DNA of 64,000 bases from Bacteroidota bacterium (lineage in GTDB: Bacteria; Bacteroidota; Bacteroidia; UKL13-3). The notes beneath the pieces were generated by a model. The model saw nothing but the letters and a program-made list of their open reading frames with translations, searched no databases and had not been told where the DNA came from. The stretch spans positions 1-64,000 of the forward strand of contig JAUXUD010000053.1 in assembly GCA_030680835.1 (NCBI GenBank), given 5' to 3'. This document shows, piece by piece, positions 21,161-22,212 of the stretch. How positions within the stretch are numbered: position 1 is the stretch's first letter; each line of letters starts with the position of its first letter. The position numbers and the translations under genes are program-made.

Positions 21161-21234
21161 TCCTTCTTAGCTCAGCTGGTTAGAGCACATGACTGTTAAT
21201 CATGGGGTCCTTGGTTCGAGTCCAAGAGAGGGAG
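21161..21234 (+). tRNA. tRNA-Asn (anticodon GTT)
   Basis: The acceptor arms TCCTTCT (21161-21167) and AGAGGGA (21227-21233) pair with one G-U. The D arm has AGCTCAGCTGGTTAGAGC. The anticodon stem CATGA/TCATG encloses CTGTTAA with GTT at 21195-21197. The T arm is CTTGG-TTCGAGT-CCAAG. The discriminator is G and CCA is not encoded. The 3' half of this gene is repeated after the next gene. Confidence 0.95.
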
Positions 21235-21235
21235 C

Positions 21236-21262
21236 AAAAAGGCCGCAGTCGCGGCCTTTTTT
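21236..21262 (+). terminator. Intrinsic terminator of tRNA-Asn
   Basis: AAAAAGGCCGC-AGTC-GCGGCCTTTTTT follows the tRNA immediately and ends in six T. It sits between the tRNA and the GIY-YIG gene, so the latter is probably expressed by read-through or from its own promoter. Confidence 0.85.
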
Positions 21263-21266
21263 ATAA

Positions 21267-21560
21267 ATGGTAACTGCATTTGTTTACATATTGTATTCCA
21301 AAAGTATTAAAAAGCATTACATTGGATTTACAACTGAATCTATACTTATAAGAGTTGACAGGCATAATTCAAACTATTATGATGGTAAATTCACAACTCA
21401 AGGTAAACCTTGGGAATTGGTTTTTTCTATTGAATGCAAAGATGAAAAATTGGCAAGAAAAATCGAAAATCATATTAAAGCCATGAAAAGCAGTAAGTAC
21501 ATTGAAAATCTAATTAACTATCCAGAAATATCCGAGAAATTAATTGCCAGATATTTGTAA
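21267..21560 (+). CDS. GIY-YIG nuclease, UPF0213/YhbQ-like, 97 aa
   Basis: A single-domain protein. It begins with TAFVYILYSKSIKKHYIGFT, which matches the GIY...YIG strands (VYI and YIG). Next come R30-like VDRHNSNYYDGK with the helical Arg, then TTQGKPWELVF and the metal-binding Glu in KDEKLARKIENHIK. The domain is complete. Free-standing GIY-YIG proteins of this size are common in Bacteroidota, often near rRNA or tRNA genes. The start is five bases after the T run of the tRNA terminator, and the stop lies at the first base of the duplicated tRNA half. It probably cuts DNA at a tRNA-derived site (inference). Confidence 0.88.
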   Translation: MVTAFVYILYSKSIKKHYIGFTTESILIRVDRHNSNYYDGKFTTQGKPWELVFSIECKDEKLARKIENHIKAMKSSKYIENLINYPEISEKLIARYL

Positions 21561-21617
21561 CTGTTAATCATGGTCCCGATAGCTATCGGGATTGGTTCGA
21601 GTCCAAGAGAGGGAGCA
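21560..21617 (+). pseudogene. Partial tRNA-Asn 3' half with inserted palindrome
   Basis: The anticodon arm and T arm of tRNA-Asn are repeated, but the 5' half is missing. The variable region GGTCC is replaced by TCCCGATAGCTATCGGGA, a perfect 18-base palindrome. It cannot form a tRNA. A related CCCCGATAGCTA sequence occurs at 19811, so the palindrome may be a dispersed repeat. Confidence 0.8.
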
Positions 21618-21662: not shown

Positions 21663-21699
21663 AAAAGGGTTTAGACCATGTTTGGTTTAAACCCTTTTT
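21663..21699 (+). terminator. Intrinsic terminator after the tRNA-Asn element
   Basis: AAAAGGGTTTA at 21663-21673 pairs with TAAACCCTTTT, with further GACC/GGTT pairing near the loop, and ends in a T run. It may have been the original terminator of the tRNA gene before the GIY-YIG insertion. Confidence 0.65.
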
Positions 21700-22212
21700 G
21701 TTTGCATACTGTTTGGAGTTGAATCTGCCTTTTCATGATATCAATTTTTTGGTTAATTCAATTAATTCATACACGCATTTCCTGCTAAAGAGTATTGATG
21801 TTACTATTATATGAATGAATTCTAAGATGTAGCATTTTTAATCAGCTCATATAGTTTGTTTATCACTTCGTATGGTGTATAACAGATGTTTATAATGACT
21901 TCTGAGGATTATAATTTTAATTCAAAAAAATGCAAAGAACCGGCGGCATTTTTGAAGCTAAAATTACCCAATTTTTATACTTATACAATTGATACCCTGT
22001 TTGTTTCTTTCAAAAACCTAAGAAATATCATTTTATTTAATTTTAATGCTAATTTATTTTGTCTGTATACTTTCTTCAAATTAATAGTATCGCTTATGTT
22101 ACTGCTATTTTAACAATGTAAAAACCCGACAAAATTTAGTGACTACTGGAACACACTTTTAAAAAGTACAGGGCGGAACCGAAAAGCCAAACGAGTAGGA
22201 ACAAGGCAAAAG
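21700..22212. other. AT-rich gap, no supported gene
   Basis: A 75-residue frame at 21886-22113 is Phe/Leu-rich and has no protein-like pattern, so I leave it out. The last 50 bases before the next gene contain a purine-rich leader (around 22165-22205) that may be part of the 5' untranslated region. Nothing else is recognised. Confidence 0.4.

Follow-up and report, generated by a model that had tools for sequence, protein, structure and literature searches.

A small GIY-YIG nuclease gene within a tRNA-Asn gene as a probable member of a family of minimal homing-type elements in Bacteroidota

Introduction

In a genome of Bacteroidota bacterium (lineage UKL13-3; GenBank assembly GCA_030680835.1, contig JAUXUD010000053.1), a very small GIY-YIG nuclease gene lies between an intact tRNA-Asn gene and a second, interrupted 3' part of the same tRNA. 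This raises the question of how such an arrangement could have arisen and whether the nuclease has a part in it. A preliminary description of the locus had proposed a minimal homing element that cuts a tRNA gene at the anticodon loop and rebuilds the gene it enters. Here we analysed the locus in its window, that is, the first 64,000 nucleotides of the contig on the forward strand, and compared it with related loci. Genomes and loci are designated by the letters G and L, the source genome being G000.

According to our analysis, the locus probably belongs to a family of minimal GIY-YIG homing-type elements that are free-standing, target tRNA genes and occur throughout the phylum; we put the probability of this reading at about 0.64.

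Organization of the tRNA-Asn locus

The following features were delineated in the window:

21161..21235, + strand: intact tRNA-Asn(GTT) gene (ARAGORN; Rfam tRNA, 66.3 bits; genome-wide DNA search)
21236..21263, + strand: putative element-type terminator of the rho-independent type (GGCCGCAGTCGCGGCC and a T run), separating the nuclease gene from the regenerated tRNA end (sequence)
21267..21560, + strand: GIY-YIG nuclease gene, 97 aa (Pfam PF01541, 4.8e-11, 43 bits, the Pfam cut-off being 22.6 bits)
21560..21573, + strand: left piece of the second tRNA copy, ACTGTTAATCATGG, tRNA nt 32-45, 14/14 identical
21574..21591, + strand: perfect 18-nt palindrome TCCCGATAGCTATCGGGA in place of tRNA nt 46-50 (GGTCC) (sequence)
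21592..21617, + strand: right piece of the second tRNA copy, TTGGTTCGAGTCCAAGAGAGGGAGCA, tRNA nt 51-75 and one further base, 26/26 identical
21663..21700, + strand: putative ancestral tRNA-Asn terminator (gggtttagacc...ggtttaaaccc, T run), displaced 3' of the element (flank match in relatives)

The components named in the preliminary description, including the two identical blocks of 14 and 26 bases and the 18-base palindrome that splits the second copy, are all present as described. Local alignment of the second copy with tRNA-Asn gave a score of 25, whereas none of 2000 shuffles exceeded 12, and the left piece overlaps the last base of the nuclease stop codon. The intact tRNA-Asn is uninterrupted, with no intron according to ARAGORN and Rfam, and is the only full-length tRNA-Asn match found by DNA search of the source genome. 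The unit has a length of about 350 bases and holds one very small nuclease gene, its only ORF of at least 50 aa, together with a spare tRNA end; it has no integrase. The start of the duplication, which had been placed in the anticodon loop, is in exact terms the last stem base before the loop, and in relatives it varies from tRNA nt 1 to about 55; a copy start at the anticodon loop was therefore rejected as a diagnostic feature. It is the palindrome, located in the variable loop in the window, that is the constant feature.

The terminator behind the second copy differs from the type found behind the intact tRNA. The latter type also follows the intact tRNA-Asn in G014 and G007, as well as in G006, which has no nuclease there. 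Downstream of the element, window positions 21665-21715 (flank query 106-156) match G009 directly behind its empty tRNA-Asn gene (79%) and G014 behind its array (88%), and the flank 3' of the second copy is homologous to the flank of the empty tRNA-Asn in G001 (85%). Because the right piece (21592-21617) is joined to a flank found behind empty tRNA-Asn genes in relatives, we interpret it as the 3' end that the host tRNA-Asn gene originally had. A genome-contig scan detected one relative sharing the tRNA-Asn architecture, a Cryomorphaceae MAG (L028); in this MAG and in the tRNA-Asn elements of G005 the palindrome occupies the same tRNA position as in the window.

Irregular loci were observed 3' of tRNA-Asn in two other genomes. 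In G005, an apparent tyrosine-integrase gene lies behind tRNA-Asn (L040, G005:C51:66807) and the GIY array is located about 33.5 kb downstream of it (L006, G005:C51:100379-100826), as if a large integrative element had inserted between the two. In L047 (G007:C4), an odd degenerate repeat (tatacagctaggta / tacataacttagtata) follows a truncated GIY-YIG remnant.

Empty, filled and scarred alleles

Comparison of the tRNA-Asn locus among relatives, as the preliminary description had suggested, revealed empty alleles. In the same genus, G001, G004, G008, G009, G010, G012, G013 and G018 have tRNA-Asn with neither a nuclease gene nor a second tRNA half nearby.

The best allele series was found at the elongator tRNA-Met (eMet) locus of another genus, where all alleles have a common 5' flank. 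G042 is empty, its tRNA being followed by ...ataaatcaaaggcttacaagttttaaatcttgtaagcc. In the filled allele of G038, the tRNA is followed by a scarred piece, a terminator, the GIY gene and then a further tRNA piece whose T loop contains TCCCGATGCATCGGGA; this last piece is fused to attataaatcaaaggcttacaag..., which is the ancestral flank. In the series, the last copy continues into the 3' flank aaaggcttacaag... that is also found behind the empty tRNA, and other sequence lies behind the intact tRNAs of filled alleles. G039 is filled up to the contig end, and G041 has a truncated GIY gene. In G041 and G036 the intact tRNA leads directly into a different terminator (aaagctacttc...gaggtagctttttt), and in G038 and G039 this same terminator precedes the gene, behind one scarred piece. 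The most parsimonious reading of these alleles is an insertion into the tRNA gene with replacement of the tRNA 3' part. Homing elements are expected to be present or absent at one defined site, with the empty allele carried by close relatives; this pattern was found both in this series and among the tRNA-Asn genes.

The proposal of an element that enters and rebuilds a tRNA gene is upheld by the empty alleles and by the ancestral 3' flank joined to the interrupted copy. A cut in the anticodon loop is not supported, either as a general rule or for the window: the palindrome occupies the variable loop here, and in other lineages the D loop, the T loop or the anticodon arm. Persistence of the second tRNA half in relatives without the nuclease, which had been named as grounds for abandoning the proposal, does occur at times; at the clean locus, G043, the gene is gone but a scarred piece and the last nuclease codons remain, and this allele is therefore a deletion scar.

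Variants of the architecture were also found. In G052 almost the whole tRNA is duplicated: the second tRNA-Leu begins at nt 7 and extends to the 3' end, and CCCCGATAGCCATCGGGG stands in place of the D-loop AAT. Four loci (L283, L281 and L306 at tRNA-Arg, L309 at tRNA-Ser) have a mirror form in which a palindrome-scarred 5' part and the gene precede the intact tRNA, suggesting that the element here re-supplies the tRNA 5' part. In all cases it is the partial copy that bears the palindrome scar.

Distribution of the family and linkage to tRNA genes

A protein search of the same genus gave 23 matches in 12 of 19 genomes, most of them with a tRNA directly upstream according to ARAGORN (Asn, Met, Val, Ala, Leu, Arg, Asp). 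Wider searches were performed with a profile built from 16 proteins. At the order level it matched 49 of 64 genomes, all of the family of the source genome, and in the phylum sample it matched 121 of 296 genomes and 76 of 140 genera. The 312 loci fetched contained 214 GIY-YIG ORFs, of which 161 scored at least 63 bits.

Among these 161 close genes, 93 start no more than 150 nt 3' of a same-strand tRNA. The tRNAs concerned represent 17 identified isoacceptors and one copy without a readable anticodon; with tRNA-Phe (G289) this makes about 19. Sufficient downstream sequence was available for 88 of the 93 genes; a tRNA-like piece was detected in 73 of the 88, and its best library match had the isotype of the adjoining tRNA in 61 of the 73. 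Several of the 12 mismatches reflect either confusion within the library or a genuine tRNA next to the gene. Isotypes agreed in 45 of 50 cases of the order-level subset (label permutation: mean 7.7, maximum 17), and no tRNA on the opposite strand was found close by. By our reading, 59 of the other 68 genes have a tRNA-like piece scoring at least 13 on one side. Most of these genes are inner array units or lie at contig ends, and since a score of 13 is close to the shuffled maximum, the weakest of the 59 are uncertain. GIY-YIG paralogues below 63 bits were linked to a tRNA in only 4 of 33 cases. The suggestion that such an element could explain the small GIY-YIG genes found near RNA genes of Bacteroidota survived these tests, with fragments matching the neighbouring tRNA throughout the phylum.

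With the single window protein as query, tblastn against 50,697 phage records gave no match at 1e-3; a plasmid collection and one viral-contig scan likewise gave no match.

Target fidelity and position of the palindrome

On a tree of 124 proteins, the isotype labels require 35 changes (minimum 19), against a mean of 91 after shuffling, and none of 200 shuffles was as low. The clusters for fMet, Ala, Val, eMet and Asn mix host families. Given a short alignment with many weakly supported forks, we regard the clustering as secure but not the order of branching; a few labels were assigned manually. The label changes on the tree indicate that lineages keep one target while spreading between hosts, as homing elements are expected to do.

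The position of the palindrome is constant within isotype clades. It replaces the anticodon arm (tRNA nt 28-44) in Ala, Arg(tct), Lys and several Val elements, and lies at nt 37-46 in fMet elements, in the variable loop in the Asn group of the window, in the T loop in most eMet elements and in the T arm in Asp and Gly elements. Its centre varies and is still palindromic, and its ends are usually TCCCG...CGGGA, with outer letters common to isotypes; the pairing counts are partly circular, as the sequences were picked as palindromes, and only the diversity at one position is informative.

In the downstream copy the candidate cleavage site is destroyed by the palindrome, and the upstream tRNA is intact. 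At most loci the 3' part of the intact tRNA is identical to the displaced one. We considered whether the element brings a recoded, uncuttable tRNA end, and rejected this as a general feature, as it was seen only at tRNA-Met of the source genome and not in G005, G014 or G052. At that locus (L018/L003, G000:C35), the T stem and acceptor end of the intact tRNA-Met beside the second GIY-YIG gene are unusual, and the displaced copy is canonical, in the form seen in the relative G010. The unusual end is possibly a foreign one brought by the element; no donor with this tRNA-Met variant was found.

Features of the nuclease

Proteins of the family have a size of about 80-105 aa. The family columns Y, Y-x-G, R29, H33, E67 and K71 are invariant in 16 relatives, and the AlphaFold model of the window nuclease has a pLDDT of 93.6. 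By sequence and fold, it comes closest among solved proteins to those of UPF0213 and to the structure-specific nuclease Slx1; I-TevI is a more distant match. Homing enzymes of the I-TevI type have a separate DNA-binding domain, for which 97 aa leave little room.

Among relatives, dN/dS was mostly 0.07-0.4 (0.07-0.3 for most close pairs; median 0.31), a comparison that indicates purifying selection on the nuclease. Together with the Pfam match, the invariant columns and the model, this points to an intact catalytic core under selection, as in free-standing GIY-YIG homing elements. The GIY proteins at tRNA-Asn are only 44-51% identical between species, compared with 86-91% for the adjoining kinase; this gap is consistent with separate arrivals or fast evolution.

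Palindromes across the genome

The palindrome core CCCGATAGCTATCGGG (window 21575-21590) is a genome-wide REP-like palindrome, with 43 exact sites in the source genome and none for the reversed control. About nine of the cores lie in tRNA-derived pieces. Other copies (L059-L093) are often located at the tips of other hairpins and in simple repeats, and in L074 and L092 the core is apparently in frame within ORFs.

These observations lend themselves to an explanation in which the palindrome, as a REP-like sequence, is the true mobile unit. The Slx1-like nuclease would then act on hairpins or cruciforms and not on a sequence-defined site, and tRNA genes would be favoured because their arms fold. 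Copies with the GIY gene would be autonomous, and solo tRNA-palindrome copies and the genome-wide palindromes would be non-autonomous, as a GIY-YIG counterpart of REP/RAYT. The number and hairpin-tip location of the cores speak for it, as do the replacement or extension of tRNA arms by palindromes, the resemblance to UPF0213 proteins and Slx1, and the outer letters common to isotypes. However, the exact palindrome is absent from many nuclease-bearing genomes and present in some without the nuclease (12 copies in G037, which has no nuclease match). Its count showed no clear relation to the nuclease across genomes and was rejected as a proxy for it. Moreover, each isotype lineage keeps its own palindrome position, as would fit a target defined by sequence. 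We regard this explanation as unlikely.

Solo scars and tandem arrays

Of the 30 tRNA loci in the source genome, 7 include a tRNA piece directly next to a palindrome, and only two of the 7 have a nuclease gene; solo tRNA copies with a palindrome thus outnumber nuclease-bearing units. Tandem arrays were found in G062 (eight matches, 410-bp period), G357 (five matches, 315 bp) and G289 (381 bp, 3' of tRNA-Phe); as these genomes consist of a single contig, the arrays are not assembly errors. In G289 the first GIY unit behind tRNA-Phe seems to be interrupted by an apparent transposase gene and the later units are intact (L327, G289:C1:545400-545920).

The frequency of nuclease-free partial copies, and the clear growth of arrays by unequal exchange, would also be expected if tandem tRNA duplicates simply decayed and gathered REP palindromes, with the GIY-YIG gene as a vertically inherited passenger. 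Such a passive origin is already disfavoured by the empty, filled and scarred alleles at a single locus. It is also at odds with the isotype-specific nuclease lineages across host families, the different terminators behind the intact tRNA and at the ancestral position, the purifying selection and the single palindrome position of each lineage, and we consider it improbable.

L301 (G095:C14) has a run of some ten tRNA-Asn-like pieces in tandem between its GIY-YIG genes; each piece measures roughly 70 bp and contains ATCCCGACGTGTCGGGAT. Such repeats beside the gene recall RNA antitoxin repeats and, with the isotype specificity, could point to a toxin-antitoxin-like pair of an isotype-specific nuclease acting on the tRNA itself and a tRNA-like palindromic transcript as decoy. 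We regard this as very improbable: among the solved relatives matched, those whose activity is known (Slx1 and I-TevI) cleave DNA, many copies retain too little of the tRNA to serve as a mimic, and presence is patchy.

Discussion

Comparison among genomes reveals the entry of the element into a tRNA gene, the regeneration of that gene, isotype fidelity, selection on the nuclease and decay. Cleavage and homing by the nuclease are what we infer from these patterns.

The closest known system is phage SegB, together with other free-standing phage GIY-YIG homing endonucleases, and it offers a precedent for the proposed mechanism. In T4 and T6, SegB is a GIY-YIG homing endonuclease that cuts inside tRNA genes at the motif RAWTSGAAC (PMC13096335), the reverse complement of which is, by our reading, the tRNA T-loop consensus. 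It is inherited preferentially and drives tandem amplification of the tRNA-segB segment (PMC2988022, PMC13096335), and its homologues show no preference for particular isotypes (PMC13096335). Both SegB and the window element have the GIY-YIG fold and a free-standing gene adjoining tRNA genes (intronless homing). SegB resides between tRNAs of phage genomes, whereas the elements described here are found in bacterial chromosomes, encode proteins of only about 80-105 aa and form isotype-specific lineages. No replacement tRNA end or palindrome scar has been described for SegB, whereas the present element has both.

Tyrosine-recombinase integrative elements and prophages likewise enter a tRNA gene, whose 3' end they rebuild, and the displaced end persists downstream as a direct repeat. 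However, they span tens of kb and have identical att repeats, in contrast to the roughly 350 bp, lack of a recombinase and palindrome-altered repeat of the present element; the single 97-aa GIY-YIG ORF and the palindrome-interrupted repeat rule out such an element here. Group I introns with homing endonucleases in bacterial tRNA genes are also nuclease-driven insertions; a group I intron or other known RNA was rejected, as Rfam gave a significant score for tRNA only and ARAGORN predicted an uninterrupted tRNA. The UPF0213/YhbQ and Slx1 proteins, the nearest solved relatives, are not known as tRNA-linked mobile elements. REP/RAYT systems and the Rickettsia palindromic elements also have short palindromes scattered in the genome, in hairpins and ORFs. 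REP/RAYT depends on a Y1 (HUH) transposase, whereas here the enzyme is of the GIY-YIG type and the palindromes of the units are tied to one tRNA position; it was ruled out because the GIY-YIG gene is the sole unit ORF of at least 50 aa and no Y1 transposase is present. In the open-licence literature (subscription journals were outside the scope) we found no description of the architecture or the family, and no paper printing the palindrome. The proposed way of working of the element resembles that of homing endonucleases and tRNA-targeting integrative elements, but its anatomy matches neither, as it lacks both an intron and a recombinase, supplies the tRNA end itself and leaves a palindrome as a scar.

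Within the proposed homing-type family, one unit comprises a tRNA 3' part, a terminator, the GIY-YIG gene, a short stretch of the same tRNA and the palindrome. The comparisons place it inside a tRNA gene, between the 5' part and the original 3' part; since the unit carries a 3' part of its own as a substitute, the upstream gene is left whole. The original 3' part, now displaced, persists downstream and bears the palindrome as a scar, at a position that is fixed within each lineage, and units build tandem arrays and decay to solo scars. The nuclease would break a tRNA gene that is still uninterrupted, close to the site that the palindrome now occupies, and repair templated by a copy with the element would bring the element in, with the tRNA 5' side and the 3' part with its flank as homology arms. 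The palindrome would be part of the element, would remove the target in the downstream copy and may serve as a structural signal for the Slx1-like nuclease. It counts against this scheme that the regenerated upstream tRNA should be a target too, its 3' part being identical to the displaced one at most loci. The little room for a DNA-binding domain and the lack of phage, plasmid or viral-contig matches to the single protein also count against it. As solo copies outnumber nuclease-bearing units, the tRNA copy could have a separate origin at some loci.

A broader scheme, which we consider doubtful, may also be put forward. Here a bare Slx1-like GIY-YIG nuclease would recognise the hairpin-forming arms of one tRNA gene, insert itself with a self-complementary tag and hand the gene a new end; it would also spread nuclease-free tRNA and palindrome tags, perhaps including the genome-wide palindromes, as its non-autonomous dependants.

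In conclusion, the proposed family of homing-type elements, if confirmed, would explain why small orphan GIY-YIG genes are so frequent in the phylum (121 of 296 sampled genomes) and why they lie beside tRNA genes, as well as the origin of the tRNA fragments and short palindromes near them. The elements would be among the smallest selfish elements of chromosomes, and would spare the host by rebuilding an essential gene. The sister lineages, each tied to a different tRNA gene, would form a natural series of nucleases that may help to learn how such a tiny enzyme finds its site.
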